From Promethearchaeia archaeon (GTDB taxonomy: Archaea > Asgardarchaeota > Lokiarchaeia > Sigyniarchaeales > SOKP01): a stretch of 64,000 nt of DNA. Both the position numbers and the translations under genes were made by a program. Position 1 is the stretch's first letter, and every line of letters starts with the position of its first letter. Under the pieces are notes generated by a model. It was given only the letters and a program-made list of their open reading frames with translations. It ran no database searches and had not been told where the DNA came from. Of this stretch, positions 5,106-21,765 are shown piece after piece. The stretch is taken from positions 1 through 64,000 of the forward strand of contig JAHQWG010000025.1 in the NCBI GenBank assembly GCA_029856045.1, given 5' to 3'.

Positions 5106-5204
5106 AAGAAAAAATAAAATTTTAATTAAATTTTTAAACTGAAATTGATTTTTATTTTATGAAAGGACTTAACCGACAATCCGATTTGTATAATTTGAGA
5201 ATGG

Positions 5205-5735: not shown

Positions 5736-5756
5736 ATTTAAATCAACTCTATAAGC

Positions 5757-5984: not shown

Positions 5985-6543
5985 CTCGTATAATATTCAT
6001 AGCAGAAGTAATTGACACTCTCCATTTGACTGCAATCTTGCGTATAGGATCTGGATTTTCGGAGCGACCGTCTTTAATTATGCTCTCTCGTTGCTCATCG
6101 GATATACTATCTTCAGACTTTGGAAACCTTTCTTCATAACCTTTCTCTGTTAAAACCTTATGGGAGATCTTTATTAATGTATAGAGGGATACCTTTAAAT
6201 TCATTTCTTCTAGTTTTTCACGAATTTTATTCTGTGAAATCTTTGTATATCTGATATAATATTTAAGGAGATTATTTAGATTTTTATTTTCATTAAATTT
6301 ATCTATTCTTTTTACTAAATTATCTTTCTCTTCTTTAGTTAGTGCATCATTTTCTTTACTTTTAATAAATTTAATAAATTTCTTAGTAAAATGAGTACCC
6401 TTATAGGCAACACCATCATGTTTCTTTATTATTTCTTGCAATTTTATTAATGCAGGGCTCGATGGCAGATATTTATCTTTATCGAAATCCCCATATACCT
6501 TTTCTATTATAAAACCAACCTTAGTAAACAACTGTTTGGTCAT
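5935..6543 (-). CDS. Unknown protein with a C-terminal HTH-like helix pair
   Basis: A 202-residue, lysine-rich, mainly helical protein with no recognised family. The last 60 residues (SISDEQRESIIKDG, then DPIRKIAVKWRVSITSAMNI) look like a helix-turn-helix of the kind found in small DNA-binding proteins, with DPIRKIAVKWRVS resembling the first helix and turn. It ends with a Ser/Phe tail. The 11-base gap from the upstream TrmB gene suggests co-transcription with it. A DNA-binding role is inference only. Confidence 0.55.
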   Translation of the reverse strand: MTKQLFTKVGFIIEKVYGDFDKDKYLPSSPALIKLQEIIKKHDGVAYKGTHFTKKFIKFIKSKENDALTKEEKDNLVKRIDKFNENKNLNNLLKYYIRYTKISQNKIREKLEEMNLKVSLYTLIKISHKVLTEKGYEERFPKSEDSISDEQRESIIKDGRSENPDPIRKIAVKWRVSITSAMNIIRDDLGEKEFNKKSSSFF

Positions 6544-6554
6544 TAAAAATAATT

Positions 6555-7436
6555 CTAAACGCTTTGTATTTCTCTTTGAGATATGTTAGTTTCAATATCC
6601 AACAATTTTCTTTCTATATCAATAGAATTATTCCATAATTGTCCAAAAAAATTTTTCAAAACATAAATCAAAGGTTTGCAATTCGTCCAAAATCCAGCTT
6701 TTTCCCGATGGTTTTTATTTTTTGGTGTAATTCCAAAAAAAATTTCCTTATTATCTATAATTATCAAAAAATGTATTAAATTTGGATCAATATTAACATG
6801 ATGAATATTACTTTTATGATGCACACTTAAAATTTCTTTATTTAAAAATCTCATTATTTTAAAATTTTCTTCTGTAATACAAGTTAATAACCTAATTTTT
6901 ATAATATCTTTATTTATAGCATCTTTAATACTGATAACTGAAGGATTTGAACGAGGGCCATTAATTTTCGTTAAAATAGCCAATATCTCTGTGTCAGCAT
7001 TTTCAATCATTTGTAAAAATTTGGAAAAGAGAATATATTCACCTTGGATGATTGTAAACTTTTCTGAATCATATTCATAATTTTTACTCTTAATACTTGA
7101 CCATAAACTGATCGAATCATTTCTTTTATCTTCTAAAAATCTTACTTCTCCTTTCTTTGTTTTAATAAGTAAATCCAAAACTTTTTCAAATGGAATTGCC
7201 GTAAATCGCATTGGGGATTCCATACTTACCTCTATTATTCCGTAATTTTGCAGATTCTTGATAATATGATAAACCTGAGCTTTATGCAAATTCATTTTTC
7301 TAGATATATCAATTGCCTTATGTGTTCCATTCTTAGCAAGAAAAATGTACACTTTTGATTCTAATTCCGTTAAACCTGTGTCTTTAAGAGCCTCTACAAG
7401 CCATATTTTTTCTGAGAGGATTTCATTATCTAGCAT
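6555..7436 (-). CDS. TrmB-family transcriptional regulator
   Basis: A 293-residue protein. The N-terminal winged helix (about residues 12-85) has the TrmB pattern LKDTGLTELESKVYIFLA, then HKAIDISRKMNLHKAQVYHI as the recognition part. A short linker helix (EVRFLEDKRND) joins a C-terminal sensor-like alpha/beta domain (residues 110-280) containing SKFLQMIENADTEILAI, resembling the phospholipase-D-like domain used for ligand binding in many TrmB proteins. TrmB regulators in archaea commonly control sugar uptake and central metabolism. It is transcribed away from the TetR gene, with 122 bases between their starts, and borders the sugar island, so it may take part in its control. Confidence 0.85.
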   Translation of the reverse strand: MLDNEILSEKIWLVEALKDTGLTELESKVYIFLAKNGTHKAIDISRKMNLHKAQVYHIIKNLQNYGIIEVSMESPMRFTAIPFEKVLDLLIKTKKGEVRFLEDKRNDSISLWSSIKSKNYEYDSEKFTIIQGEYILFSKFLQMIENADTEILAILTKINGPRSNPSVISIKDAINKDIIKIRLLTCITEENFKIMRFLNKEILSVHHKSNIHHVNIDPNLIHFLIIIDNKEIFFGITPKNKNHREKAGFWTNCKPLIYVLKNFFGQLWNNSIDIERKLLDIETNISQREIQSV

Positions 7437-7490
7437 TATTATCTGATTAGTTTTGTTATTTCATGTAAAATTGAACATGCATTAATTATA

Positions 7491-7510
7491 AGTGACCTTG
7501 TGACCATTTA
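7491..7510 (+). promoter_or_regulatory. Putative TetR operator upstream of tetR (divergent spacer)
   Basis: AGTGACCTTGTGACC at 7491-7505 is similar to the AGTAACAATTGTGA box found before six other units of this island and also reads as two GTGACC repeats. It lies about 18 bases before the TATA-like ATATTTAAAT (about 7527-7536) that serves the tetR gene. It is the weakest member of the set and autoregulation is inferred. Confidence 0.35.
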
Positions 7511-7558
7511 AATATTTTCATTCATAATATTTAAATTACTTTTATTATAATAGTAATT

Positions 7559-8173
7559 ATGCCTAAAGCTTTTTCAGATAGAGAGAAAAAGATTATAAAA
7601 AAGAAATTACTCGAAAAAGGTAAGGAGTATTTTAGAATATTTGGATTAAAAAAAACAAATATAGGAGAACTAACAAAATCTATAGGCATAGCCAAAGGAA
7701 CATTCTATAATTTTTATAAATCGAAAGAAAAACTATTTTTAGATATATTAGAAAAAGTTGAACAAGATCATGTTGATTTCCTGTCTAAAGAAATCACTAA
7801 TATTGATAAATCTCCAAAGGATATATTTAAATTTTTTCTTAAATATCGATATAATGTTATTGAAACTGAACCTATAATAAAGATGCTCCTTACTAGTGAT
7901 GAAATGGATTACCTTTTTAGAATATTACCAGAAACCACACGTATAAACTTTATTCGTAGAAAAATAGATAATGAATATATGATACAATTTAACAAAAAAT
8001 GGCAAGAAGATGGTTTGTTAAAAAAAATTGATCCTGAAATTTTGGCTAACTTATATCGAATATTTGCTGTAATTAGTATAGGTAAAGAACATGTTGGTAA
8101 GTCGAAGATTAATGAAACAATTGATTTACTTATAGATATTTTAGCAGACTACTTAATAATTCCGTCAGAATGA
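7559..8173 (+). CDS. TetR/AcrR-family transcriptional regulator
   Basis: A 204-residue TetR-like repressor. The N-terminal HTH (about residues 10-55) is textbook: FGLKKTNIGELTKSIGIAKG followed by TFYNFYKSKEKLFLDIL. The rest is an all-helical ligand-binding and dimerisation domain. The transcript is almost leaderless: a TATA-like ATATTTAAAT lies about 25 bases before the ATG. It sits at the head of a sugar catabolism island whose units share one palindromic box, which makes it the best candidate for the protein that reads that box. This link is inferred from position and from the palindrome, as TetR dimers bind inverted repeats. The inducer is unknown. Confidence 0.88.
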   Translation: MPKAFSDREKKIIKKKLLEKGKEYFRIFGLKKTNIGELTKSIGIAKGTFYNFYKSKEKLFLDILEKVEQDHVDFLSKEITNIDKSPKDIFKFFLKYRYNVIETEPIIKMLLTSDEMDYLFRILPETTRINFIRRKIDNEYMIQFNKKWQEDGLLKKIDPEILANLYRIFAVISIGKEHVGKSKINETIDLLIDILADYLIIPSE

Positions 8174-8325
8174 TTTTTTAGGCTATTTTAATCCAAACTA
8201 TGCTAGAAGTACTTAATATTTTACGTATTATTGTGAAAATAATCAATCACTTTTCTTCAAGTTTAAAATTCTAAAATTTTTATTGATAGAACTTTTAATA
8301 TTTCTTTAGAATTATGCTATTAGTA

Positions 8326-8356
8326 AGTAACAATTGTGAATGAATAATTTTTATTA
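8326..8356 (+). promoter_or_regulatory. Island operator plus TATA before the dehydrogenase gene
   Basis: The box AGTAACAATTGTGA occupies 8326-8339, with the perfect palindrome ACAATTGT at its core. ATGAATAA follows, then the TATA element TTTTTATTA at about 8348-8356. Start of the gene is at 8394, leaving a leader of roughly 15 bases. The arrangement is the same as at 9622, 15777, 17527 and 19997. Confidence 0.65.
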
Positions 8357-8393
8357 GTGAAACGATAATAATTTTAAAATAGTTGTTAAAAAA

Positions 8394-9524
8394 ATGCCGA
8401 AAGAATTAGTATTTTTAGGACCTAGAAAAGTTGGATTTAGAGAATACGAGGAGCCTCCTTTAAAGGACACCGAAGTAAGAATTAAGACCCTATATTCTGG
8501 GATTAGTAGTGGTACAGAATTAGCTATTTATAGAGGGCAAGCACCCATGTTTAAAAGAACCATTAAAGATGGTTTGTTTGCTGATGGAGAACCTATATAT
8601 CAATATCCATTGGTTTATGGATATGAAGAATATGGAGAGGTAATTGAAATAGGAAAGAAGGTGGAAGAAGAAAACAAGTATAAAGTTGGATCTTTCGTGG
8701 CAGCATCATATGGACACAGAGAAACAGGTGTTGTTGATGCCTTTGAATCAATTAAAGAATCACTAAATTTCTATGGATTAATCGAAATTCCGCCCCCACG
8801 AAAAATGCCCCCATCTGTTAAAGATAAAAAATTAGCTAAAAGAATGATGGCAGTTTCATTAGGAGGATTATCTTATGATGGGATAGTCATGTCAGGCATC
8901 CAAGCAGGTGAATCCGCAGTAATTTTTGGTCAAGGACAAATTGGACTTTGTTGTACTTTAAGTTGTAAACAAATTGGTGTCAATCCAGTAATAGCAGTTG
9001 ACGTGGTTGATGAGAGGCTTGAACTTGCGAAAGAATTTGGAGCAGATTATGTTTTTAATCCAAATAAGTGCAATGTAGCAGAAGAAGTAAGAAAAAAATT
9101 AAAAACAAGATATGCCCTTCCCGGTGCTGATGTAGTTTTCGACGCCTCAGGATCATATAAAGCGCTTAAAGATGCTATTAGATGTGGAGCTCCTGGATAT
9201 GGAAAAGTTATTGCAATTGGCTTCTATAAAGGACCTGCTACCGAACTTGATTTGGGAGAGGAGTTTCACCACGGTCTTGGTGCAAGTACAATCATATCTG
9301 TTGGACCATATGCTCGTCAACTATATCGAGCAACGGCTCCTGGAAGAAAATGGGATATGAAAAGAGTAGGGATGGCCTATTTCCGTTTAACTTTAGGGAA
9401 AGAAGATTTAATTGATAAATTGGTAAGTCATACTTTTAAATTTGAAGATGCGTTGAAAGCATATGAAATTTTAGACAAACATCCCGAGAATTGTCTTAAA
9501 ATGCTCTTAACTTTTCAAGAATAA
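8394..9524 (+). CDS. Medium-chain dehydrogenase/reductase, zinc-ligand-free (BchC-like)
   Basis: A 376-residue MDR-superfamily enzyme with an N-terminal GroES-like domain and an NAD(P)-binding Rossmann domain (VIFGQGQIGLCCTLSCKQIG, residues about 175-195). The usual catalytic-zinc ligands are absent: where alcohol dehydrogenases have Cys it reads SGISSGTELAIYRG, and where they have GHE it reads GYEEYGEV. This pattern is that of the SGISxGTE branch, which includes bacteriochlorophyllide dehydrogenase BchC and many uncharacterised sugar-cluster enzymes. A hydride transfer on a sugar or polyol hydroxyl is likely, but substrate is unknown. It carries its own copy of the island operator and precedes the sugar transporter. 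Confidence 0.78.
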   Translation: MPKELVFLGPRKVGFREYEEPPLKDTEVRIKTLYSGISSGTELAIYRGQAPMFKRTIKDGLFADGEPIYQYPLVYGYEEYGEVIEIGKKVEEENKYKVGSFVAASYGHRETGVVDAFESIKESLNFYGLIEIPPPRKMPPSVKDKKLAKRMMAVSLGGLSYDGIVMSGIQAGESAVIFGQGQIGLCCTLSCKQIGVNPVIAVDVVDERLELAKEFGADYVFNPNKCNVAEEVRKKLKTRYALPGADVVFDASGSYKALKDAIRCGAPGYGKVIAIGFYKGPATELDLGEEFHHGLGASTIISVGPYARQLYRATAPGRKWDMKRVGMAYFRLTLGKEDLIDKLVSHTFKFEDALKAYEILDKHPENCLKMLLTFQE

Positions 9525-9550
9525 TATCATTTTTTATTAATATAATACTA

Positions 9551-9561
9551 TTTTTTTTTTT
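9551..9561 (+). terminator. Oligo-T terminator after the dehydrogenase gene
   Basis: A run of 11 T residues lies 26 bases after the stop codon. Archaeal RNA polymerase ends transcription at such T-tracts without a hairpin. Confidence 0.5.
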
Positions 9562-9621
9562 AATTTATTTAGCTTTTGAGAAATTCAAACAATCATCATT
9601 ATTTAATTCTCTAGTAATAAG

Positions 9622-9655
9622 TCAGTTATAATTGTTACTAACTAATCTTTAAATG
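9622..9655 (+). promoter_or_regulatory. Island operator plus TATA before the sugar symporter gene
   Basis: AGTTATAATTGT at 9624-9635 is followed by TACTAACTAA and the TATA-like TCTTTAAATG. The box matches the consensus AGTAACAATTGT at most positions and keeps the same distance to the TATA element. The flanks GTCAG and AAATGTAGA are also found at the 19997 site, so the similarity extends beyond the core. The gene starts about 90 bases downstream. Confidence 0.5.
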
Positions 9656-9733
9656 TAGACTTATTATAATTAAATTGTTTAGAATTTGTATTAATTTAGT
9701 TCTATCTACAAAAAAATATTTAAAGAAGACAGG

Positions 9734-11167
9734 TTGAATATTATGAGTAACGAAGATAAGTCCAAAAAAAATGTAGCTACTCTTGACGTACCATCGCACT
9801 CACTAAAAGTTATGGCTTCTTTTTCGGTTGCTAGTTTAGGATTAGGAATCATTACATCTGCGATTGGAATGCAACTGTTATATTTCTATGAAGTTCTCTT
9901 GCAAATGCCAGCAGCATTATTCATCATAGGTAACGGAATTTATGTGATTTGGGATGCTATCGATGATCCTTTGCTAGGATATATGTCTGATCGCCCAAAG
10001 CGCTTTTGGGGAAAATGGGGTAAGCGATATCCTTGGGTAATGGTATCTTTTGCTCCAGTTTGTATAACCTTTGCCTTGCTTTATGGGCCTCCATTCAGTG
10101 ATGAAATGCTTTTACTTGCTTGGTTAATTGTTAACCTCTTTATATTTGATACTTTTCGATCGTTGTGGAACATTAATTTTAGTGCACTCTTATATGAAAA
10201 ATATATCACTGATGATGAACGGACTAAGATATCTGGATTTAACAACATTTTCCGGCAACTTGGTGGAGTTTTTGCTATGATAGTGCCTGGATTTTTGATT
10301 AATTATATGGATCCTAGCACTTTTTTAAATTATGGAATTTTTGTTTCAATATTATCTGCTATATGTGTGATCATAGCCATACCAGGAATGAAAGAAGATA
10401 AATGGATGAAAGAAAGAGCTGTTTTATTAGCTCAAAGTGGTGTGTATAGAGGATCAACTCTCGTCGATTTCTTTTCAACAATGAAAAGAGGATTTAAAAC
10501 ACGAAACTTCAGTGTGTTTTTAATAGTCGGTACATTATTTTTTCTTATGTCAATAATGCAACAAGCTTCAATACCTTATTATATTTCTTATATTTTAGTA
10601 TTGGGTGCTGAAGCTCAGCTTCTAATCTATATGCCATATCTCATTATTGTAATAGCAGTGACTCCATTCGCAGTAAAAATTGCTAAAAAAATTAATCCAG
10701 TAAAAATGTTTAAGTATTTATTATTTACTTATGGAATAGGGGCATTCCTACTGTTAATTCCAACGGATTTGATTAGTGCTATAATAGTACAATCCATAAT
10801 TGCATTTATATCTGGATTTACAATAATCGTCCTAACCCCTGTAATTGGGATGATGCTTGATGAGGCCACCTTATCCTTTAAAGCACATAAAGAAGGTATT
10901 CTACTCGGAATCTATATTTTTTTCCAGGCTTTAGCTGGATTCGCTAGTACTTTGATTATTTTGTTAGTTCATTCGCTTACAGGGTTTGATCCTACACTAG
11001 GTGCATCACAAACTGCTTTAGCTTTTTTCGGCCTCCGATTACAAATCGCAATTATCCCCGGGATTATAATGATGATAGCAGGGATAATTTTCATGTTTGG
11101 TTGGACACTTACAGATGAAAAAATGGTAGAAATTCGAGCAAAGTTGAAAGAGTTAAAACTTAGGTAG
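9734..11167 (+). CDS. GPH-family sugar:cation symporter (MFS)
   Basis: A 477-residue, 12-helix membrane transporter of the glycoside-pentoside-hexuronide (MelB-like) branch of the major facilitator superfamily. The signature is seen near the N-terminus: WDAIDDPLLGYMSDRPK followed by GKWGKRYPWVM. A second conserved cytoplasmic loop after helix 6 contains RGSTLVDFFSTMKRGFK. It should import a sugar or glycoside with H+ or Na+ into the cytoplasm. The frame starts at TTG 9734, but the ATG at 9743 (MSNEDKSKKN), about seven bases after ACAGGT, is the more likely start. The island operator lies upstream, tying uptake to the catabolic genes around it. Confidence 0.85.
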   Translation: MNIMSNEDKSKKNVATLDVPSHSLKVMASFSVASLGLGIITSAIGMQLLYFYEVLLQMPAALFIIGNGIYVIWDAIDDPLLGYMSDRPKRFWGKWGKRYPWVMVSFAPVCITFALLYGPPFSDEMLLLAWLIVNLFIFDTFRSLWNINFSALLYEKYITDDERTKISGFNNIFRQLGGVFAMIVPGFLINYMDPSTFLNYGIFVSILSAICVIIAIPGMKEDKWMKERAVLLAQSGVYRGSTLVDFFSTMKRGFKTRNFSVFLIVGTLFFLMSIMQQASIPYYISYILVLGAEAQLLIYMPYLIIVIAVTPFAVKIAKKINPVKMFKYLLFTYGIGAFLLLIPTDLISAIIVQSIIAFISGFTIIVLTPVIGMMLDEATLSFKAHKEGILLGIYIFFQALAGFASTLIILLVHSLTGFDPTLGASQTALAFFGLRLQIAIIPGIIMMIAGIIFMFGWTLTDEKMVEIRAKLKELKLR

Positions 11168-11205
11168 GTATTAATCTCAATAATTAATTTATTACTTTTT
11201 TTTTT

Positions 11206-11218
11206 TTTATTTTAATTC
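11206..11218 (+). terminator. Oligo-T terminator between convergent genes
   Basis: A run of 13 T residues lies 38 bases after the symporter stop and just before the end of the convergent dehydrogenase gene. Confidence 0.5.
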
Positions 11219-11240
11219 TAAAATATTTTTTTTAATGATT

Positions 11241-12485
11241 CTATAAGTCAAAATGCTTATTAATGTCATTTTCATAGAAGGAGGTTTTCCCTTTCTCAAT
11301 ATCATCAACCAATACCGAACGATCTAAATATGAGGATTCAATAATGGCATAAGCAATAGCTAAATCTTTTAATCCTTCTTTCCCACTGATTTCCATTTCA
11401 TTCCCTTCAAGAATGGCATTTAAAAAATCTAAAGTCTCCAATGCTGCTGCGTCAGTTAGACCGTAAGGAAAAAATTTGTCTTTTATTCCTTGGGATGCAT
11501 TTTCATCAAATAATTGATTAACACTTGTTTTTGTTCCATCATCTAAATTGACAATATTCGATTTTATTGACCCTTTAGTCCCATATATAGTGGGAAACAT
11601 CATTATTGGCGGACCATGTAAAGCCCATGAATATGATATTTGACCTAGAGCTCCACTTTTGAATTTTAAAATAGCCAAGAAGGTATCATCAACTTCACTT
11701 TTAATTCTTTGAATAATTTTTCCTGTCTTATCGCGATTTACCCTAGTATCTTCAAAAATTCTAACAATTCCTTGAACAGATTCAACCTCTCCACAATAAC
11801 TTCTCAGAAGACTGAGGAAATGTACACCCATGTCTAATGTTACTCCACCTCCAGCCTGTAGTTTTAAATGACGCCAAGGGGTTTCTGCAACAATCTTATC
11901 GGGAGACCACCAACCTCCTAATCCGGCTTGAAATACTAACTGAATGTTACCAATACATCCTTGGTCAATTACCCACTTGGTTTTTCTCATTCCGGGTATG
12001 AAATGTATGCCTTCGCCTACACCTAATACTTTTTTAGCCTTTTCTGCCGCTTCTACCATTTTCCGTGCTGCTTTCACAGTAATAGCTATTGGTTTTTCCA
12101 CCATAACATGCTTATCTTCATATAAACTATCAATTGTGATAAAATGATGAGTATCAACGCTAGTATAGATATCCACGGCATCAATATCGGCTTCTTTAAG
12201 CATATTTTTATAATTATCATAAAGTTCAATATCAATGTCACTTTTTTGAAAATCTGAAACATATATGTGAGGTGCATGAAGTGGATCTCCTGGAGGACCA
12301 ACCGGGTCTTTTGGTTGTGACCCCTCACTACGCTTCCTAAATCTTAAAGCATTTTCAATATGCTTATCACATAATGCTCTAATCTCTACTTCAAAGCCCT
12401 TTTCCATTAATGCTTTGTATCCATGTAAATGGATAGGCATGATTCTACCGCACCCTACCAATCCTACTTTAATTTTTTTTGACAT
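11241..12485 (-). CDS. Gfo/Idh/MocA-family dehydrogenase
   Basis: A 414-residue NAD(P)-dependent sugar dehydrogenase. The N-terminal Rossmann domain opens with VGLVGCGRIMPIHLHGY. The family's catalytic-lysine motif is intact as VEKPIAIT (about residue 136), and LDMGVHFLSLLRSYCG supplies the GxHxxD-like region of the C-terminal alpha/beta domain. Residues 50-75 hold an unusual Pro/Gly-rich insertion (KDPVGPPGDPLHAPHIYVSD) between the first strands. It is the last gene of a leftward unit with two TIM-barrel genes upstream (13447 and 14344). AGGAGAAA precedes the start. Members oxidise sugars or their derivatives, often at C3 or C1; the precise substrate is not readable. Confidence 0.85.
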   Translation of the reverse strand: MSKKIKVGLVGCGRIMPIHLHGYKALMEKGFEVEIRALCDKHIENALRFRKRSEGSQPKDPVGPPGDPLHAPHIYVSDFQKSDIDIELYDNYKNMLKEADIDAVDIYTSVDTHHFITIDSLYEDKHVMVEKPIAITVKAARKMVEAAEKAKKVLGVGEGIHFIPGMRKTKWVIDQGCIGNIQLVFQAGLGGWWSPDKIVAETPWRHLKLQAGGGVTLDMGVHFLSLLRSYCGEVESVQGIVRIFEDTRVNRDKTGKIIQRIKSEVDDTFLAILKFKSGALGQISYSWALHGPPIMMFPTIYGTKGSIKSNIVNLDDGTKTSVNQLFDENASQGIKDKFFPYGLTDAAALETLDFLNAILEGNEMEISGKEGLKDLAIAYAIIESSYLDRSVLVDDIEKGKTSFYENDINKHFDL

Positions 12486-12538
12486 TTTCTCCTACTTTTG
12501 GATTATTATTATTATGGTCTAATAAATATGCAAGCTTC

Positions 12539-13447
12539 CTACATCATTTTTTCCAAAAATTCATGAGTCCACTTTATGTCATTTATTCTTTGCTCTGTGG
12601 TTGCCATTTCTCTTTCAATTATTAGGGGGCCATTATAACCAATTTCATTTAGTTTTTGAATGAACTGCTTGGCTCCAACTTGACCCTTTCCAAATGGAAC
12701 TTCTTTGACCATGTGAGGTTTTCTTTCCCTTGCTTCAACTTCTGGAAAAAGCCCATCTTTACAATGAACTCCTTCTATGTAATCCTTGAGTAATTCCAAG
12801 GATGCGATAAGATCTATTTCAATGCCATTCATCCAACCATAATATAGAAGATTAGCTGGATCAAAATTAATTTTTAAATTCTTTGCTCCAACATCTTCAA
12901 TAAAACGTACTAAAGTTTCAGGGGTTTCTTGACCTGTTTCACATAACCAAGATTGATTATTTTTATCAAGAAATTCTGTTATTTTTTGCATGGCATCAAC
13001 TAGTCCTTTATATATAATTCTATGATAAAGATCAGATGTGTTTTCAGGTATATAACCAACATGTTGAGCAAGTTTATCAACTCCTAAATCTTTAGCGAAA
13101 TCCGATGTCATAAAGACATGCTTTATTCTCTCTTCACGGTAAATAGGATTAATTAATCCAATTGTTTCTTTTTTTACATAGTTAGTTCCTTTCCAGTGTA
13201 CAAATATAGCAGATATTTTAATTCCAGTTTCTTTTAATTTTTTAATTAATTTCTCCTTTTTTTCATCTATAAAATGTTCAATTGGAGGAGAACCAAGGTG
13301 CATAGTTTTAAATCCTAAAGAATCAACCCATTCAATTGCTTCTAAAGCATCCTTCCCCTCCCAGGTCATAACACCAATATCAAAAGCTCCCATCTTAAGT
13401 GTCGCAACCAAATATGAGAATGTTATGTTATTATTTTCAAATTTCAT
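12539..13447 (-). CDS. Sugar phosphate isomerase/epimerase-like TIM barrel (IolE-like)
   Basis: A 302-residue AP-endonuclease-2/xylose-isomerase-like TIM barrel. Likely divalent-metal ligands are Glu in CETGQETPE, Asp in INFDPANLLYYG, His in EGVHCKDG, and Glu in LIIEREM. The pattern LxxDYIxGVHCKD and PFGKGQVG is shared with inosose dehydratases and 3-keto-sugar isomerases or lyases. An alternative start at residue 19 (MGAFDIGVMTW) fits the family's usual beginning better than the annotated one, since barrel strand 1 starts there. It lies between the Gfo/Idh gene and another TIM barrel in one leftward unit. Confidence 0.8.
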   Translation of the reverse strand: MKFENNNITFSYLVATLKMGAFDIGVMTWEGKDALEAIEWVDSLGFKTMHLGSPPIEHFIDEKKEKLIKKLKETGIKISAIFVHWKGTNYVKKETIGLINPIYREERIKHVFMTSDFAKDLGVDKLAQHVGYIPENTSDLYHRIIYKGLVDAMQKITEFLDKNNQSWLCETGQETPETLVRFIEDVGAKNLKINFDPANLLYYGWMNGIEIDLIASLELLKDYIEGVHCKDGLFPEVEARERKPHMVKEVPFGKGQVGAKQFIQKLNEIGYNGPLIIEREMATTEQRINDIKWTHEFLEKMM

Positions 13448-13525
13448 TTACCAATTGCTATTGAAATCTTACTATACTTGATACTTATTTGACTATTTTA
13501 CTAAAGATTTGTATTAACATCATAA

Positions 13526-14344
13526 TTAAATTAAACTCCTCACTATAGCTAACAAATTCCTTATACCTTCTCTTTGATCATATTTACCCATAGGTGGAAG
13601 TTCTAAAGAATAAAAACCGTCAAAACCCGTTTTTTTCACAATATCCATGAACGGTTTCAAGAATTTTTCACCTACTTCATTTGGTACTGTTTTTGCATGT
13701 ATAATGCTTGCATATTTACTCATTTTTCTTATACCCTCTTCTCTTATTTCAGCAGGAAATAATATGGCATTTCCTAGATCAGGTAACGTTTTCATAATAT
13801 CTGGACCTACCTCCTCGATAATCTTAATAATATTATCAGGATTTGTGGTCATACCAGGACCGTGATTTTCTATGAGTAGTTTCACACCAATTTCCCTTGC
13901 AATAACTGCGAGTTCTTTATAACCATAAATGGCTCTTTGAAGAGCATCTTCAGTCGAATCAATCTTAGCCCTAGGTAAAGGAGAATCTGGATTTACTCTT
14001 ATGGATGGTGATCCTAAATATTTGGCAATCGAAAACCATCTTTTAATTATTTCAAATTCCTCCTTCCTTTTCTCTGGATTTGGTTCTGAAGTTGTCCCAA
14101 TGTCAACACATATATTAGTAACATTTACATTTGAATCCTTTAAAGATTCTTTCATTTTTTCAATAAAATCCATTTCTACTGATGGAAATTGCATTTGGCA
14201 AAGCTCAATATTGTTTAATCCTATTTCCTCAACACAGATCTTGGGAAACTCAAGGATTGTGATCTTATCACCCCCGTATTGAGGAAAAAGATAATTTGGC
14301 AACTCACGAGAAAGGCTAAAAGAATTTACACATATTTTCTCCAC
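13526..14344 (-). CDS. Sugar phosphate isomerase/epimerase-like TIM barrel
   Basis: A 272-residue TIM barrel of the xylose-isomerase-like superfamily, typical length. Candidate metal and active-site residues are Glu in LCQMQFPSVEMD, Glu-Asn-His in LLIENHGPGMT, Asp in TLPDLGNA, His in IIHAKTVPNE, and Glu in YSLELPPMG. It is the first gene of the leftward unit (14344 to 11241), and diverges from the Gfo/Idh gene at 14617. The spacer contains a shared palindromic box. Isomerisation, epimerisation or C-O cleavage of a keto-sugar are all compatible with this family. Confidence 0.8.
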   Translation of the reverse strand: MEKICVNSFSLSRELPNYLFPQYGGDKITILEFPKICVEEIGLNNIELCQMQFPSVEMDFIEKMKESLKDSNVNVTNICVDIGTTSEPNPEKRKEEFEIIKRWFSIAKYLGSPSIRVNPDSPLPRAKIDSTEDALQRAIYGYKELAVIAREIGVKLLIENHGPGMTTNPDNIIKIIEEVGPDIMKTLPDLGNAILFPAEIREEGIRKMSKYASIIHAKTVPNEVGEKFLKPFMDIVKKTGFDGFYSLELPPMGKYDQREGIRNLLAIVRSLI

Positions 14345-14469
14345 TTTAAAATCACTCTTAAATTTTTTAATATAATAATTATATTTTTTCTGAAAAAGTT
14401 TTATTAGATGCTTTTTAATGAAAATTATTTTTTATTAGAGATACTCACAGATAGGAAAAATATTACGTG

Positions 14470-14550
14470 GCAAATTTATAATAATTATTTAGTAACAATT
14501 GTGAATAATCAATTTTTATAAGTAATATTTCTAAATAATTTTTATAAATC
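14470..14550. promoter_or_regulatory. Bidirectional promoter with shared island operator
   Basis: AGTAACAATTGTGA at 14491-14504 is flanked on both sides by TATA elements: rightwards AATTTTTATAAGT (14511-14523) and, on the other strand, a TTATTATAAATTT-like element (about 14472-14485). The spacing from the palindrome to each TATA is similar, so one bound dimer could block both directions. A second rightward TATA (AATTTTTATAAATC, 14538-14550) continues into sequence almost identical to the promoter of the 15842 gene. It serves the 14617 gene rightwards; its role for the 14344 gene leftwards would imply a leader of about 100 bases. Confidence 0.55.
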
Positions 14551-14616
14551 AATATCAATTTTATAACCTAAGTTTTAAAACTTATAATAATTATTTAAGA
14601 GGAGGTTGAGAATTAA

Positions 14617-15729
14617 TTGACCAGAATTGTTAAATTAGCACAAGTTGGGTGTGGAAGTATAGCTCAGAGAATGATAATGAATAGGCTAAAAGCTCCCAGT
14701 GTTAAAGAAAAGGTTGAATTGATAGCTACTATGGATGTAGTTTCTGAAAGAGCTAAAGCTTGTATGGAAAAGTTTGGGGCGAAAGAATGGTATGACGATT
14801 ATGATAAGATGTTATTAAATGCAGATATCGATGCTGTAACTATTGCTACACCAATAGGATTGCATTATGAACAAGTGATTAAAGCAATATATGCAGAAAA
14901 GCATGTTCATTGTCATAAAACTATTACTACTAATGCTAGAGAAGCTACTGATATAATTGAAGTTGCTAAACAAAAAAATATTAAAGTTGTCGCTTCTCCT
15001 GGAACAAGCGTTATGAGTCCTATAGTTACCAAGATAAAACAGGTTTTAGAAAAGGGCACCATAGGAAAGGTTTATTGGGCTCAATTGGGAAGGCAATGGG
15101 AAGGGCATGAATATGAACCTTTCAGGAAATTTGGTAATATTTTAACCGATGTAGATCCTTCATGGTATTATAAAAAAGGTGGTGGACCTATGTATGATAT
15201 GGGTGTGTATGAACTTACCGAGCTCACGGCAATTTTTGGTCCTGCTAAAAAAGTATCAGCCATGTCAGGTATAGGCCTTAGAGAAAGGAAAATTAAAGAT
15301 AAAGCGATAGATGTAGAAATGGATGATAATACAATGCTTCTTCTTGATTTTGGTAATTCAATGTTCGCTTATATATTTGCAACTTTTTCAGCACTGGCGG
15401 ATGAGGGTCCTGTACCTCCCTTCAGTATTTCTGGAAGTGAAGGAGGAATGAGACTAGGTAAATTCAAGAGTGAGAGATATAAATCAATATTGGATATATG
15501 GAGTCCTTCTTTACCCGAAAAACATGAACAGGAAATTATTTCAGGTTACAGGGAAGATGCATTCTTCGATGTTATGCATCTTGTTGATTGCGTAAAAAAT
15601 GATGAAAAACCGATTGTAATGGATAATATTGAGAGCATGCAAATTGCCAGACATGTAATAGAGATTATTGAGAAAGGTTACATTGCTGCTAAGACAGGAA
15701 AAACACAAGAATTAGAAACAACTTTCTAG
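14617..15729 (+). CDS. Gfo/Idh/MocA-family dehydrogenase with altered EKP motif
   Basis: A 370-residue family member with the NAD(P)-binding motif AQVGCGSIAQRM at the N-terminus. At the position of the usual EKP motif it reads CHKTITTNA: the catalytic lysine is kept, but the Glu and Pro are replaced by His and Thr. The C-terminal domain has GGGPMYDMGVYELTEL, where the family's common histidine is a tyrosine. Start is TTG at 14617, chosen for GAGGAGG about 10 bases upstream. It has its own operator-bearing promoter and a promoter sequence closely matching that of the next TIM-barrel gene. Catalytic activity may differ from canonical members. Confidence 0.82.
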   Translation: MTRIVKLAQVGCGSIAQRMIMNRLKAPSVKEKVELIATMDVVSERAKACMEKFGAKEWYDDYDKMLLNADIDAVTIATPIGLHYEQVIKAIYAEKHVHCHKTITTNAREATDIIEVAKQKNIKVVASPGTSVMSPIVTKIKQVLEKGTIGKVYWAQLGRQWEGHEYEPFRKFGNILTDVDPSWYYKKGGGPMYDMGVYELTELTAIFGPAKKVSAMSGIGLRERKIKDKAIDVEMDDNTMLLLDFGNSMFAYIFATFSALADEGPVPPFSISGSEGGMRLGKFKSERYKSILDIWSPSLPEKHEQEIISGYREDAFFDVMHLVDCVKNDEKPIVMDNIESMQIARHVIEIIEKGYIAAKTGKTQELETTF

Positions 15730-15776
15730 TAGAAATATTACTGATAATTCTCAAATGGTAAAGTACAAATTAAGTC

Positions 15777-15810
15777 ATAAATATTTGTGACTGAATAATT
15801 TTTATAAATC
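15777..15810 (+). promoter_or_regulatory. Island operator plus TATA before the 15842 TIM-barrel gene
   Basis: ATAAATATTTGTGA (15777-15790) matches the right half of the box, then CTGAATAA and TTTTTATAAATC (about 15799-15810). The left half is degenerate. The TATA lies about 32 bases before the ATG, so the transcript is nearly leaderless. The sequence after the TATA is almost the same as at 14538-14575. Confidence 0.55.
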
Positions 15811-15841
15811 CAATAGCAATTATATAACATAGGTTTTCGCA

Positions 15842-16654
15842 ATGAAATTAGGATTAAGAGTTAATGCTTTTGATTTAGGAATTTGGTTAGATAAGAATGC
15901 AATGCCACCTAAAGATGTATGGGAACCGTCCGTAAAAAGAGCAGCTGATCTTGGGTTTGATGGTGTTGAATTATGTGTGTGGTTTCCACTTTCAGAATGG
16001 TTAAATGAAGAAGATATAACTAAAATGATAGAAACTGCTAAAAAACATAATATTGAAATTGCTACTATATCTGCTGATTGGTGTCACAGTTATAGTGCTT
16101 ACCACACAAGCTTGAGTGATTGGTTAAGATGTGGCAACGGAATTGAATTATTTAAAGGTGAAATAAAATTAGCAGCGAAACTCGGAGCAAAATCAATGTT
16201 ATGGCATTTGGGTAGAGCTAAGGGTACGATGGAAGAACTTAAAAAGATTTTTTATTATTTTGCAGAAGAGGCAGAAAAACAAAAAGTCAAAATTGGCATA
16301 GAAAGCAGTTTTTGGCCAATTATTGGCCTTGGTGATCAATATATTCTAAAAGAATTATTAGATGAGATTAATAGTGAATATTTTGGAGTATATATTCATG
16401 GTGGTCGAAAAGCTGTTGAAATAATGGAAAAAAGAAGCGTGGGATTTCATTTTTATGTAATGCCTGGATTTCCCACACTTGAAGAGAAATATGATTATAA
16501 AGCATTGTTTGATACGTTTAAAAAATATTATGATTATTATATCGTTTTTGAACCCATTTCTCATTATACAAAACCTTACTCTGAATACTTATCCGATAAA
16601 TCTTTGGAAAAAGCTAAAATAGATTTTGATAGAATATTCACTAAATATCGGTAG
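15842..16654 (+). CDS. Sugar phosphate isomerase/epimerase-like TIM barrel
   Basis: A 270-residue xylose-isomerase-like TIM barrel, beginning MKLGLRVNAFDLGIW with strand 1. Candidate active-site residues include Glu in GVELCVWF, His in MLWHLGRAKG, Glu in KIGIESSFWPIIG, and Glu in YIVFEPISHYT. The sequence is divergent from the other two barrels of the island, especially in the HGGRKAVEIMEKRSVGF segment, which suggests a distinct substrate or step. It is first in a unit with the small protein at 16688 and perhaps the methyltransferase at 16990. Confidence 0.78.
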   Translation: MKLGLRVNAFDLGIWLDKNAMPPKDVWEPSVKRAADLGFDGVELCVWFPLSEWLNEEDITKMIETAKKHNIEIATISADWCHSYSAYHTSLSDWLRCGNGIELFKGEIKLAAKLGAKSMLWHLGRAKGTMEELKKIFYYFAEEAEKQKVKIGIESSFWPIIGLGDQYILKELLDEINSEYFGVYIHGGRKAVEIMEKRSVGFHFYVMPGFPTLEEKYDYKALFDTFKKYYDYYIVFEPISHYTKPYSEYLSDKSLEKAKIDFDRIFTKYR

Positions 16655-16687
16655 AAATATAAATATAAAAAAAAAAAGTAATCTTTT

Positions 16688-16951
16688 ATGAGTGAGATTG
16701 ATAAGATAGTCAAAATATTCGACGAAAGCATTGAAGAGGTGCAACCATTTCACGAAGAAGGTGCTGATTATATAAGAAAATTCCAAGAAGTCATAAAAGA
16801 TTTAGATGCTGAAGGTAATAAGGAAAAAGCTAAAGAATTATTTCATATAATTTTTGATCCCATGGTTGAATATGAAAGTTATGTTCCCACATCTGTAGCA
16901 CATTTTAAAAAGATTAAAGAAATTCTTATAAATAAGGGAATTGAATTATAA
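16688..16951 (+). CDS. Small acidic protein, YVPTSVAHF family (copy 1)
   Basis: An 87-residue, helical, acidic protein with no family known to me. It is clearly homologous to the 82-residue protein at 20062: both begin MSEI, both have a pattern of EE-V-x-P and EG-x-D-x-IR, and both end in YE-[ST]-YVPTSVAHF followed by a basic-hydrophobic helix. The conserved SVAHF tail is the most constrained part, so it is probably the functional or binding surface. It starts 34 bases after the TIM-barrel gene and should be co-transcribed with it. A role as an accessory subunit or chaperone of an island enzyme is a guess from context. Confidence 0.7.
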   Translation: MSEIDKIVKIFDESIEEVQPFHEEGADYIRKFQEVIKDLDAEGNKEKAKELFHIIFDPMVEYESYVPTSVAHFKKIKEILINKGIEL

Positions 16952-16959
16952 CCTAACTA

Positions 16960-16976
16960 TTTTTTTTCTTTTTTTT
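16960..16976 (+). terminator. Oligo-T terminator after the small protein gene
   Basis: A T-rich tract interrupted by a single C lies 8 bases after the stop. It would end the 15842-16951 unit, although the next gene begins only 14 bases later. Confidence 0.4.
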
Positions 16977-16989
16977 AAAAGTATTAAAC

Positions 16990-17520
16990 ATGAAAGTTTT
17001 AAATTCAAATAATAGAACTCATGCAAAATCTACAATCTGGCCGCTTGTTTTTAATTGGATTAATGAATGTTTTGAATCTTCAAGCTTAATTTTAGATTTA
17101 GGTTCTGGAACTCACATCTGGTATATGGATAAATCAAGAATGATCCGAATTGATCATTTCAAACAAAAAATTGAAACTAATCATGAAAGTTTTATCCTTA
17201 ATGACTTAAATCGTGGGATTCCCTTAAATAATAAAACAGTTGATTATGCTGTGGCAGTTGAGGTCATAGAGCATTTAGAGAATCCACTTTTCTTTTTACA
17301 GGAAATTAGACGAGTCGTTAGGAAGAAAGCAATTATAACATGCCCAGATGGAATTGAAAGCGGGTGGTATACTCCTTGGACTTATACTTTCTTTGGTCAT
17401 ATTTCCATTCTTTCAAGTTGGTTATTAGAAAATCATTTTAGACGTGTGAAACTAGAAGTTTTAAAAAAAATGCATGATTCTGAAAAGAAAGAGATTGTCC
17501 TATATATGATAAAGATATAA
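16990..17520 (+). CDS. SAM-dependent methyltransferase (class I)
   Basis: A 176-residue, short class I methyltransferase. Motif I is LILDLGSGTHIWYMD, motif II is IRIDHFKQ, and motif IV is YAVAVEVIEHLENP, which matches the Methyltransf_11 type. The protein lacks an obvious N-terminal cap or C-terminal substrate domain, so it is a minimal Rossmann fold. It follows the small YVPTSVAHF protein after 38 bases, but it carries no operator of its own, and its link to the sugar island is uncertain. The substrate is unknown. Confidence 0.75.
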   Translation: MKVLNSNNRTHAKSTIWPLVFNWINECFESSSLILDLGSGTHIWYMDKSRMIRIDHFKQKIETNHESFILNDLNRGIPLNNKTVDYAVAVEVIEHLENPLFFLQEIRRVVRKKAIITCPDGIESGWYTPWTYTFFGHISILSSWLLENHFRRVKLEVLKKMHDSEKKEIVLYMIKI

Positions 17521-17526
17521 ATTATG

Positions 17527-17560
17527 AGTAACAATTGTGACTGAATAATTCTTATAAATT
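17527..17560 (+). promoter_or_regulatory. Island operator plus TATA before the PIG-L deacetylase gene
   Basis: AGTAACAATTGTGA (17527-17540) is identical to the boxes at 8326 and 14491. CTGAATAA and TTCTTATAAATT (17549-17560) follow with the same spacing. The gene begins at 17629, giving a leader of about 45 bases that contains GTGAAGGA as a ribosome site. Confidence 0.65.
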
Positions 17561-17628
17561 AGCACATCTAAGTATATTTTACTAAATAATATCTTTATGG
17601 TTAAAAAATTAAGTGAAGGAAAAAAGAC

Positions 17629-18396
17629 ATGGAAAAAAAAGAAAAGTTACACGTTGTTTTTATCGGGGCTCATCCTGATGATGAAGGATTTTGTTCTGGT
17701 ACTCTTGCTAAGTACGCAAAAAAAGGACACAAAGTAACTATAGTATCTGCAACAAAAGGAGGTAGAGGACATTATGAAATTCCAACTGAAAAATTAAGAG
17801 AAATTAGAATGAATGAATTACAAAACGTTGCAAGAATATTAGGTACTGAAGTGATGTTTTTAGATTATGTTGATGCCGACATCCCTCCTCCAAGTGATAT
17901 GAAAGATGATTTTGTGAATTTATTACGGAAGTTAAGACCCAATATCGTAATTACATGGCATCCCTATACTGATAGAGATGATCATAGAAATATTGGGCAA
18001 GTTGTATATGATGCTTGTTTCAAATCAAGTCTCCCTCTTATAATGACGGATGATTCCTTTATCCCCCTCCCTAGAATTTATTTTATTGGTGAACCTGTGT
18101 ATCCTTCAGAGCCAGACGTTTATGTGGATATTACTAGCGTGATTAATATTAAAATTGAAGCTGTCAAAGAACATAAGAGCCAACTTGAAGAATGGATACC
18201 ATGGTCTTATGAGATGGGAACTGGAGGGAAAATCAAGCCAAACTTAGATCAAATAATAAAATATTTTGTTAAGGAACGAGGACGTAAATTTGGAATTGCT
18301 TCAGGTGTAAAATATGCAGAGGAATTCAGGATAATTGGGGCAGGAATGCCTAAAATAAAAGCTAAACAATTGCTACCTTATACAATTACTTTCTGA
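17629..18396 (+). CDS. PIG-L/LmbE-family deacetylase
   Basis: A 255-residue zinc-dependent N-deacetylase-like protein. The first metal motif is AHPDDEGFCSG near residue 15 and the second is HPYTDRDDHRNIGQ near residue 115, which supplies the later His ligand. Family members remove acetyl groups from GlcNAc moieties in glycolipids and small thiols, or act on other amide bonds. Length and motif order are normal. It has a clean copy of the island operator, so it should be expressed together with the dehydrogenases and TIM barrels. This suggests an amino sugar or acylated sugar as the island's substrate. Confidence 0.85.
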   Translation: MEKKEKLHVVFIGAHPDDEGFCSGTLAKYAKKGHKVTIVSATKGGRGHYEIPTEKLREIRMNELQNVARILGTEVMFLDYVDADIPPPSDMKDDFVNLLRKLRPNIVITWHPYTDRDDHRNIGQVVYDACFKSSLPLIMTDDSFIPLPRIYFIGEPVYPSEPDVYVDITSVINIKIEAVKEHKSQLEEWIPWSYEMGTGGKIKPNLDQIIKYFVKERGRKFGIASGVKYAEEFRIIGAGMPKIKAKQLLPYTITF

Positions 18397-18600
18397 ATTT
18401 ACTTCAATTCATTATTTTTTTATTTGAATAATTTATTTATCTTTTTGGAAAAGGTTTTATCATGGGAGGGGATTAAACATTCATTAATTATTAAACCTTA
18501 TACAAATAAAAAAATTTTATAAATTCATGAATATTTCAATAGAATTTCTTATTATTTTTAAACAAATTTCCTTAAATTAATTGTCAACTTAGAAGAGAAG

Positions 18601-19863
18601 ATGAAGAATTATAAAATACGAGACGATTTATGGGAAAGAATTCGTAGTAAGATGGATGAGATAAAAATTGTAGACACTCACGAACATTTAGGTCGTGCAT
18701 TTCCAATATTTACTATAAGCAAAAAATACAACATGAATTTGATAACATTTTTAGCACATTCTTATCTTTATGGCGATTTAATTTCTTCAGGAATGAAAAT
18801 GATTCCTCCAGAAAAAATGAGTTGGCAACAACTCAAGCCATTTCTAGAAAACGTGAAAAATTCAATCTATTTCAGATATTTACTGAGAGCATTAAAGGAT
18901 TTTTATGGACTTAAGGAAGATAATATAAATGATAATAATTGGAAAGCAATATCTTATCTAATCAGTAAAAAAACTGAAAACCATATTCAATGGTCCTTGG
19001 AAGTGCTTGATTTAATGAATATTCACCGCATGATTCTTGATATAAGTAAGGGATGTATAGTGAATACTGAAATGATTAATGACGACCGACTAGTTCAAGT
19101 TGTAAAAATGGATGATTTTATCATGGGGGGGTTAAATATTGTTAAAAAATTTACTAATAACTCGGTAGATAAGCTTGACGATTATTTGGAAGTACTTGAT
19201 ATGGCTTTCGAAATAGCAAAAATGAATAAAGTAATAGGAGTTAAATGTGCAATAGGATATAATAGAATCATCAGCTTTGATTCTATAGAGAAATCTGAAG
19301 CTCAAAAAATCTTTAGTAATGGTATTAGAAATGTAAGTTTAGCAGATAGAAAAAAATTCCAAGATTATATGATGCATATTGTTTGTGAAAGATCCATTAA
19401 ACATGATCTTCCTATCCAAGTTCATACAGGATTGCAAGCAGGAAATTTTAATGATATAACAAATGCTAAACCTACACATCTAACTAATTTATTTAAAAAG
19501 TATAAAAAAGCACGTTTTGTTTTATTCCATGGAAGTTATCCTTACATACAAGAAGCTGGAGTTTTAGCAAAATACTTTCCCAATGTATATCTTGATGCGT
19601 GCTGGTTATCTCATATCTCTCCATCATCATATAGACGTGGATTGGATGAATGGCTCGACATTGTACCATCTAATAAAATTTTTGCCTGGGGTGGTGATCA
19701 TGAAATAATAGAACATAGCTACGCTTCATTGATGCTTGCGAAAGATCTTATTACTGATGTCCTAGTTAATAAAATAATATCGGGAGATTCCAGTGAAAAA
19801 ATCGCGATTTCGCTAATGGAGAAAATTCTTCATGGAAATTCCATTAACTTTTATGGTCTATAA
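18601..19863 (+). CDS. Amidohydrolase-superfamily protein
   Basis: A 420-residue metal-dependent hydrolase-like TIM barrel. It carries the HxH motif in VDTHEHLG (residues about 24-31), a His in PIQVHTGLQAG, FHGSYPYIQEAG, and the final Asp in FAWGGDHEI. The large central insert (residues 50-200) and the YLDACWLSHISP strand recall the Amidohydro_2 and uronate isomerase-like branches, so both hydrolysis and aldose-ketose isomerisation are possible. It has no island box; its TATA is ATTTTATAAAT at about 18514-18524, followed by a leader of about 60 bases. It sits between two genes that do carry the box. Confidence 0.75.
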   Translation: MKNYKIRDDLWERIRSKMDEIKIVDTHEHLGRAFPIFTISKKYNMNLITFLAHSYLYGDLISSGMKMIPPEKMSWQQLKPFLENVKNSIYFRYLLRALKDFYGLKEDNINDNNWKAISYLISKKTENHIQWSLEVLDLMNIHRMILDISKGCIVNTEMINDDRLVQVVKMDDFIMGGLNIVKKFTNNSVDKLDDYLEVLDMAFEIAKMNKVIGVKCAIGYNRIISFDSIEKSEAQKIFSNGIRNVSLADRKKFQDYMMHIVCERSIKHDLPIQVHTGLQAGNFNDITNAKPTHLTNLFKKYKKARFVLFHGSYPYIQEAGVLAKYFPNVYLDACWLSHISPSSYRRGLDEWLDIVPSNKIFAWGGDHEIIEHSYASLMLAKDLITDVLVNKIISGDSSEKIAISLMEKILHGNSINFYGL

Positions 19864-19996
19864 ATCTCTATTTTTACAAATTATCAATTATACTTAAAAA
19901 AATTAAATTTTAGATTATATAATTTAAGTGTTAATTGATGATCCCAAGGGACTAAATTCAATTGTTCTTAAGTAATAAGAAATGCGTTTTGTAGTC

Positions 19997-20030
19997 AGTA
20001 ACATTTGTGAATGAATAGCTTTTTTAAATG
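19997..20030 (+). promoter_or_regulatory. Island operator plus TATA before the second small protein gene
   Basis: AGTAACATTTGTGA (19997-20010) differs from the best boxes at one base. ATGAATAG and the TATA-like CTTTTTTAAATG (20019-20030) follow. The gene begins at 20062, about 32 bases after the TATA, so the leader is very short. Confidence 0.6.
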
Positions 20031-20061
20031 TAGAGATAATTATTTAAATTGAGTTATAATT

Positions 20062-20310
20062 ATGAGTGAAATAGAAGAATATATAAAAAAACTTAATGAA
20101 AGTGCAGAAGAAGTAGAACCATTAAGCCCTGAAGGAGGAGATCGAATAAGAGACATTATAGAACTGGTTAAAAATATAAATGAAGGAGATAATAAGAAAA
20201 AAGCTTTAGATTTAGTAATGGAGATACTTGAAAGGATGGAGGAATATGAAACTTATGTTCCCACCTCTGTCGCACACTTTAGATTTCTTAAGGAGGAATT
20301 CTCTAAATAA
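20062..20310 (+). CDS. Small acidic protein, YVPTSVAHF family (copy 2)
   Basis: An 82-residue paralogue of the 16688 protein, sharing MSEI at the start and YETYVPTSVAHFRFLKEE at the end, with the same helix lengths between. It is transcribed alone from its own operator-bearing promoter, so control by the island regulator does not depend on a neighbouring enzyme gene. A GGAGGA inside the 3' end is coding, not a ribosome site. No function is known to me; two retained copies in one catabolic island argue for a specific partner. Confidence 0.7.
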   Translation: MSEIEEYIKKLNESAEEVEPLSPEGGDRIRDIIELVKNINEGDNKKKALDLVMEILERMEEYETYVPTSVAHFRFLKEEFSK

Positions 20311-20323
20311 AATTTTTAAATCT

Positions 20324-20350
20324 TCTTTTTTTTAATGCTCCCTTTTTTTT
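20324..20350 (+). terminator. Oligo-T tracts ending the sugar island
   Basis: Two T runs (about 20326-20333 and 20343-20350) follow the last island gene and could end its transcript. Confidence 0.4.
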
Positions 20351-20405
20351 ATTGTTTAGAATAGGATTATCTCAGTGAACAAAAAATTTAAGGAAATATT
20401 TGTAT

Positions 20406-20878
20406 CTATAGATTTTCTCGAATAAAATTCCAAATTACATTGTTAACTTTTTCCGGAGCTTCAATTGTTAATCCATGACTTAATCCTGGAAGAATTTCTA
20501 CTTTTGAATTTGGGATTCTTTCATCACTTGACTTTGAAATAAAGGTATTGGTAGTTCCATGAGTGCTCTCTATAGCATTCAACTTAGTAGGTTTAATCCA
20601 AGCGACAATTGCGAACTCATTATTAAAGGGGCTATTATACGATCCAAAAACATCATTAAGAATATCTCCGAAATAGTTACTCGAATTGAAAGATAAGGTT
20701 TCTTCTTTATATTTTAGGGAGTCATATGTCTTTATACAAAATTCTCATCAAGATACGCTTTAAATACTAATGCTGGAGGGAGCGAAGGATACCCGATAAT
20801 TAATTCTTCTATATATCCTTCAAAGGAAGAGGTTAACACGAAACTCAGGAAACATTCATTAACATGAATATGGTACCT
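20406..20878 (-). pseudogene. Decayed mosaic of LamG-domain and alpha/beta-hydrolase fragments
   Basis: Read leftwards there are two overlapping open stretches without start codons. The first (20878 to 20732) gives SSFEGYIEELIIGYPSLPPA, resembling the end of a LamG/concanavalin-like lectin domain (FxGYIDELRI). The second (about 20747 to 20406) gives FNNEFAIVAWIKPTKLNA and TNTFISKSSD, resembling the start of a LamG domain. It then changes within a few residues to KVEILPGLSHGLTIEAPEKV, the typical C-terminal end of an alpha/beta hydrolase with the catalytic His, and stops at TAG. The parts are out of order and frameshifted, so these are relics joined by recombination. No complete gene is present. 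Confidence 0.4.
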
Positions 20879-20910
20879 TGAGATGAATTATTTGTTTTTT
20901 TGCCTAATTT

Positions 20911-21765
20911 AACACACTTTATTTCTTTTATCAAGACTTTTAACCACCCCGATTTTAAGCGATAAAAAAGTATAGTGTAGGGCAAAGGCGTTAGAGATTA
21001 CATAGTAATAAACAGGAGGAAGGACTTCTTTTAACCTTAGATTTCGCAGTCCTTTATTTCATATGTCGGTATTTTGAATTACAACAGAGTAAAATATGAG
21101 AGTTGGATATTTTAATATTTACTAAAGTATTTGATTATTTTAAGCTAAAATTAACAAGTGTGAATTCTTTAATCCTTTTTTCACTTGGAATTGGTTTTGT
21201 TTTAACTATTCATATACGATATATGGGTTGATAATCAGTATAATTAATTGATATTTATTTTATGTAGAATGCTTTAACTTTTTTTATTCTTAGATTCATT
21301 GATTGGACTTGAATTTGCTAATGATTTTTTAATTGTTGGAGCATATGCTGTAAAGAAAATTTATAAGACTATTAAATCTCTCTAAATTTTTTAAAAATAT
21401 ATTATATAGTTAAATAAATCTTGTCTAAAATTTATTTCCAAAGAATTACTTGAATGAAATAACAAATCTCTCTTCCCTCATATCGAGAAGGTTTTTAATA
21501 TTACTGAAGATTGAATCTACAGCTGGTTCATTTTTACCGTTAACATTAAGTAAAATTAATGTTAATTATGTTCCTTTACCTTAATGTTTAATCGTCGATT
21601 GTTTACTAAGAGTTGTAACATCCAAAATAACGAGGTTGGAAAATTATTTTCAAAATTTTATATATTTTAGAAGGTCTTATGACGAAATATGCACATAATT
21701 TTATAAATTCATGAAAATATAATAGGATGAACCGTGTTAAAAAATGCAATCCATGAAGAATAACA
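20911..21765. other. Intergenic, no gene recognised
   Basis: About 850 AT-rich bases with stops in all frames and no ORF I can support. A promoter-like ATTTTATAAATTCATGAA at about 21699-21716 precedes the reading frame at 21766. The stretch is probably eroded coding DNA, as relics lie on both sides. Confidence 0.4.

Follow-up and report, generated by a model that had tools for sequence, protein, structure and literature searches.

A palindromic promoter module in a sugar-related genomic island of a Promethearchaeia archaeon and its candidate regulators

The island and its genes

The window analyzed here, a 64,000-nucleotide stretch of the Promethearchaeia contig JAHQWG010000025.1, contains a genomic island of about 17.9 kb (5108-23031) that three congeners lack at the corresponding site. 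The sequences on the two sides of the island (786-5107 and 23032-25437) adjoin in one of these genomes (G004, L092), where they are 92-93% identical to the window and separated by about 60 bp, and likewise in G002 and G001, so that the 17.9-kb block stands in place of the intergenic stretch of ~60 bp in the congeners. The simplest interpretation is that this lineage gained the block, although its loss in the congeners may be the alternative. With respect to tRNA-associated integration, no tRNA was found in the window. It seems that the block brought along a control circuit of its own.

Two regulators with a common intergenic region of 122 bp are encoded inside the inserted block. One is a TrmB-like protein of 293 aa (6555-7436, minus strand) with a TrmB DNA-binding domain (PF01978, 57.4 bits against a cutoff of 25.6; 1.3e-15), no match to another Pfam domain, for instance to a C-terminal sugar-binding domain such as sugar-responsive TrmB proteins have, and no sequence relative in PDB at E<=0.01. 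This protein has no match at E<=1e-10 in the other family members searched and two weak matches in one genome of the order. The other is a TetR-family protein (7559-8173, plus strand) with an N-terminal TetR_N helix-turn-helix (PF00440, 29.3 bits against a cutoff of 24; 7.4e-7); elsewhere in the phylum it has six orthologues, which are 35-41% identical to it.

The cargo, as assigned by Pfam, includes a zinc dehydrogenase (8394-9524), a GPH/MFS_2 sugar symporter on the plus strand (PF13347, 4e-45), two Gfo/Idh dehydrogenases, three xylose-isomerase-like TIM barrels, a methyltransferase, a PIG-L deacetylase (PF02585, 6.9e-28) and an amidohydrolase. NCBIfam yields sub-cutoff similarity only, mostly to inositol and 3-keto-sugar enzymes. 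At E<=1e-40, none of 116 relatives has a homologue of the Gfo/Idh protein encoded at 14617; relatives of the island dehydrogenase are found at 36-37% identity only, and searches of genome contigs returned only a 37% relative from Halanaerobium and a 24% relative from Gastranaerophilales. Two small proteins of 82-87 aa (16688-16951 and 20062-20310) are paralogues, 49% identical, the second of which has its own box promoter; neither has a Pfam match or, at the thresholds applied, a homologue in the 116 relatives. On the minus strand at 20412-20670, an open stretch of about 80 residues that follows several stops and has no Pfam match has the look of a gene remnant; by eye, it resembles the C terminus of an alpha/beta hydrolase.

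A palindrome at fixed distance from BRE and TATA

Within the island, a box recurs at the six positions given in the initial annotation (8326, 9624, 14491, 15777, 17527 and 19997), and together the copies form a 20-bp palindrome, TNAGTNACAATTGTNACTNA. The box sequence AGTAACAATTGTGA is present in exact copies at 8326, 14491 and 17527 and with 1 mismatch at 19997, whereas two copies are degenerate (9624, AGTTATAATTGTTACT; 15777, ATAAATATTTGTGACT). Across the window, AGTAACAATTGTGA with up to 3 mismatches has 32 matches against 13.5 expected, with a maximum of 30 among 100 shuffles.

Each box precedes a TATA element and a gene or operon. Box 1 (8324-8343) is followed by TTTATTAGT at 8350-8358 and the zinc dehydrogenase gene, and the degenerate box 2 (9622-9641) by TCTTTAAAT, the 9-mer of which starts within 9646-9648, and the symporter gene. 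On the plus strand, box 3 (14489-14508) is followed by TATA at 14515-14523 and one of the Gfo/Idh/MocA dehydrogenases (14617-15729). Box 4 (15775-15794), with a degenerate left arm, has TTTATAAAT at 15801-15809 and a plus-strand unit that consists of a TIM barrel (15842), the small protein at 16688 and the methyltransferase (16990). Box 5 (17525-17544), the best copy, has CTTATAAAT at 17551-17559 and the deacetylase gene on the plus strand (17629), and box 6 (19995-20014) has TTTTTAAAT at 20021-20029 and the small protein gene at 20062. All these boxes lie on the plus strand, except for box 3, which is bidirectional. The amidohydrolase gene (18601) lacks a box but has a TATA of its own; it is possible that it is expressed by read-through from 17629.

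At 14491, a TATA element lies at +16 on both strands, so that two BRE/TATA elements in opposed orientation flank one palindrome at equal distances. The minus strand reads ACAATTGTTACTAAATAATTATTATAAAT, which matches the module pattern with 0 mismatches, and its TATA is ATTATAAAT (14474-14482). This minus-strand module brings into the set the divergent operon at 11241-14344, which encodes two TIM barrels (13526 and 12539) and the second Gfo/Idh dehydrogenase (11241); thus, the six boxes serve seven promoters, one more than originally described. The plus strand has a second TATA, stronger than the first and 26 bp beyond it (offset 42), and either of the two may be the one in use. The 14491 site would lend itself to experiments on whether a single dimer is able to govern a pair of BRE/TATA promoters that point in opposite directions.

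The claim that the TATA box follows at the same distance holds for six of the seven promoters, in which the TATA-like 9-mer starts at +16 from the dyad, but not for 9624, where it starts at +14. The summed TATA score was reached by none of 2000 random placements of seven random intergenic positions each, and a binomial estimate for the fixed spacing, with 70 offsets allowed for, is about 5e-8. The edge of the palindrome falls at +10 from the dyad and the TATA 9-mer begins at about +16-17, that is, the operator is directly upstream of BRE/TATA, flush with the upstream edge of BRE and without TATA overlap. The helical phase of the palindrome relative to BRE is constant before all seven promoters. 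When the promoters are aligned on the dyad, T at -10 and A at +10 are present in 7/7, and, accordingly, what had been described as a TGAATAA spacer is the proximal palindrome edge plus the BRE position. The TATA elements match the consensus at 7-9 of 9 positions and are near-canonical in most modules. Predicted leaders are about 13 nt for 8394, about 10 nt for 15842 and 20062, 47-71 nt for the remaining plus-strand genes and, by the same rule, about 105 nt for the minus-strand operon at 14344.

Identity among the aligned promoters is 80% in the box, 72% in the spacer (36% when shuffled) and 75% in TATA, with sharp limits at -10 and +25 relative to the dyad; the flanks, at 38% and 34%, are at the shuffled level (35% and 34%). 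Because conservation is so sharply bounded, the promoters are not recent copies of one another, and it is the module itself that has been kept; recent duplication is ruled out by the flanks. In principle, the module could be a promoter cassette that multiplied by duplication in the island, with the box as a by-product that has no dedicated reader. The conserved spacer and the partial resemblance by eye of the promoters around 14530 and 15790 fit this scenario, but box and TATA persist where the flanks do not, both arms of the palindrome are kept, and one dyad is common to the divergent promoters, all of which makes a cassette of this kind very improbable. The resemblance itself extends over 14524-14570 and 15779-15830, around and after TATA (TTTATAAATC.AATA.CAATT.TATAAC), and suggests one partial promoter duplication within the island.

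Confinement of the module to the island

We scanned the 3.34-Mb genome with patterns that allowed mismatches, using the reversed pattern as the control. When no more than 1 mismatch is allowed, 5 places match the 16-mer AGTNACAATTGTNACT, and 4 of them fall in this 12.5-kb stretch (binomial probability about 1e-9). The fifth place (C27:205208) has no TATA at the module distance, nor has any of nine additional places with two mismatches that we looked at. For the box combined with BRE/TATA at up to 2 mismatches, 5/5 genome places are in the cluster, against 0 for the reversed control. Thus, the box does not recur at random genomic positions at a similar rate, a host-wide regulon is ruled out, and the regulon of transporter, dehydrogenases, TIM barrels, deacetylase and small proteins delineated in the initial annotation stands. 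Among 116 relatives, the box + TATA pattern has four scattered matches, within the reversed-control range and hence at chance level; a longer pattern with three mismatches, run on 228 genomes of the phylum, recovered five island places and isolated single matches. Viral contigs were rejected as a source of further modules: the three near-identical matches there all come from one unrelated, higher-GC phage-like sequence and have no TATA behind the box. Judged by sequence, the island sites are copies of one operator-BRE-TATA module and would constitute a closed, island-private regulon.

The looser copy reported before tetR (7491-7505, plus strand; AGTGACC-TTGTGACC) did not hold up as a further module: its center is shortened by one base, its geometry is different, and there is no TATA at the module distance. 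Only 4 places in the 3.34 Mb match the pattern AGTNACN{1,3}TTGTNAC, about as many as for the reversed control, and the inverted-repeat score of this variant with a -1 gap was reached by 5/200 shuffles. The notable part is its location in the trmB/tetR intergenic stretch, which does not discriminate between the two regulators.

Candidate regulators and the mode of control

If a regulator of the host read the box, one would expect further module promoters in the genome, and there are none, so an island-encoded reader is likely. We infer that a dimeric regulator encoded in the island would bind the palindrome. The initial annotation singled out the TetR protein; an island regulator, with TetR as the favored candidate, is still the likely reader, but the second island regulator, the TrmB-like protein, had been overlooked.

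The palindrome, to which binding is predicted, is present before genes that neighbor tetR. In the window, a box half-site, TTATGAATGA (7518-7527, minus strand; score 10.2), lies directly upstream of the tetR TATA and is a possible autoregulatory site. The orthologous tetR genes lie outside any such island, divergent from a short-chain dehydrogenase (SDR) gene, and four of their promoters have the half-site TTATGACTAA just upstream of TATA, in the position of TTATGAATGA in the window; the half-sites in the other two (G015 and G066) are weaker. The expected number of half-sites per promoter is 0.00-0.03 for the four, 0.06 for G066 and 0.14 for G015. This evidence is modest because, among the six relatives, four are nearly identical to one another. 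On these sequence comparisons, TetR is modestly favored as the putative reader of the box.

That the TrmB-like protein reads the box instead, a possibility that overlaps with activation (below), is supported by its island location, its membership in a family of sugar regulators and the intergenic region it has in common with tetR, and also by the box itself, in which the half-sites of AGTCAC-N4-GTGACT are oriented like those of TATCAC-N5-GTGATA, the TrmBL1/Tgr site (PMC4158304). However, the box spacing is one base off that site, trmB lacks the box module, and half-sites are found in tetR promoters of genomes without an adjoining trmB. We regard a TrmB-like reader as unlikely.

Several archaeal systems resemble the island regulon in part. 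The TrmBL1/Tgr regulator of Thermococcales, which activates from upstream sites and represses from downstream ones, recognizes the TGM, a palindrome that, as in the island, is found in promoters of sugar transport and metabolism, has the half-site TCAC/GTGA and, when activating, lies upstream beside BRE/TATA (PMC4158304). The TGM regulon, in contrast, is global and belongs to a different phylum, whereas the island operator AGTNACAATTGTNACT occurs in one island only; membership in the TGM regulon is ruled out given that this operator differs in the center (N4) and the outer bases. A palindrome just upstream of BRE/TATA, as in the island, is also characteristic of TFB-RF1, whose promoters have a weak BRE (PMC5937170), and of Tar/TK0271, which has such sites at three operons (PMC6737238). 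Both are proven activators, and the likeness drawn here concerns site position. FadRSa of Sulfolobus acidocaldarius, also a TetR protein, represses one catabolic gene cluster from few sites; its 16-bp dyad motif and autoregulation count as likenesses to the island, where binding is predicted, but its cargo is for fatty acids rather than sugar-like, and most of its sites are >130 bp from promoters, whereas the island sites are all flush with BRE at fixed spacing (PMC6449355). By analogy, the island promoters may work like known archaeal operator-BRE-TATA promoters within a cluster-local regulon similar to that of FadRSa. What sets the island regulon apart is a promoter geometry of unusual uniformity, along with one bidirectional site that is dyad-symmetric.

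Most TetR proteins are repressors. Our best explanation, to which we assign a probability of about 0.45, is that the TetR protein represses the module promoters as the reader of a private regulon. A TetR dimer would bind the palindrome before the seven promoters and would also control its own promoter through the weaker related sites; when bound, it would cover BRE and hold off TFB/TBP, until the operator is freed by a ligand that derives from the sugar-like substrate after import, so that transporter and catabolic genes would be switched on together. If so, this would be a compact regulon in a group of archaea whose regulators have received little study, with one palindrome, seven promoters and two candidate proteins, in which one box predicts the gene set of a sugar-like pathway; it would also suggest that catabolic islands of archaea are able to take both promoter and regulator along when they move.

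The sign of control is the weakest step. The family of the regulator and the near-canonical TATA elements fit repression in an inducible catabolic cluster, but an operator upstream of BRE is in the usual position of archaeal activators (Ptr2, TFB-RF1, Tar). The fixed spacing, taken earlier as a fit to a repressor that blocks TBP/TFB, is confirmed but also compatible with an activator: the palindrome edge and BRE share bases, so the spacing alone does not decide. The regulon could be closed and the regulator, TetR or TrmB-like, could be an activator that touches TFB or TBP and thereby recruits them. An activator bound flush upstream of BRE would require fixed spacing and phase; the +16 spacing in 6/7 promoters and the symmetrical service of two promoters from 14491 are consistent with this mode, and known activators bind upstream of BRE/TATA (PMC5937170; PMC6737238; PMC4158304). 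However, TATA is close to consensus in most modules, unlike the weak TATA/BRE of activator-dependent archaeal promoters (PMC5937170), and the general tendency of the TetR family toward repression also counts against activation. We therefore hold activation as a tentative yet serious alternative, with TetR repression slightly ahead of activation by either candidate. A narrower version, a horizontally gained catabolic island with a complete private circuit, with the module ahead of almost all units and the dyad-symmetric operator serving two divergent promoters, in which the island TetR activates through contact with TFB/TBP, appears improbable.

The relatives of tetR offer one further observation. 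In G031, G057, G042 and G043 (L036-L042), the tetR/SDR intergenic region contains four GTCA repeats with an exact 8-bp period, probably an operator array of that TetR group. These repeats dominate the tetR promoters of the relatives, including those with the half-site TTATGACTAA, differ from the island palindrome and are absent from the island boxes, which counts against the TetR reading. The tetR promoter in the window contains two TGAC at 8-bp spacing.
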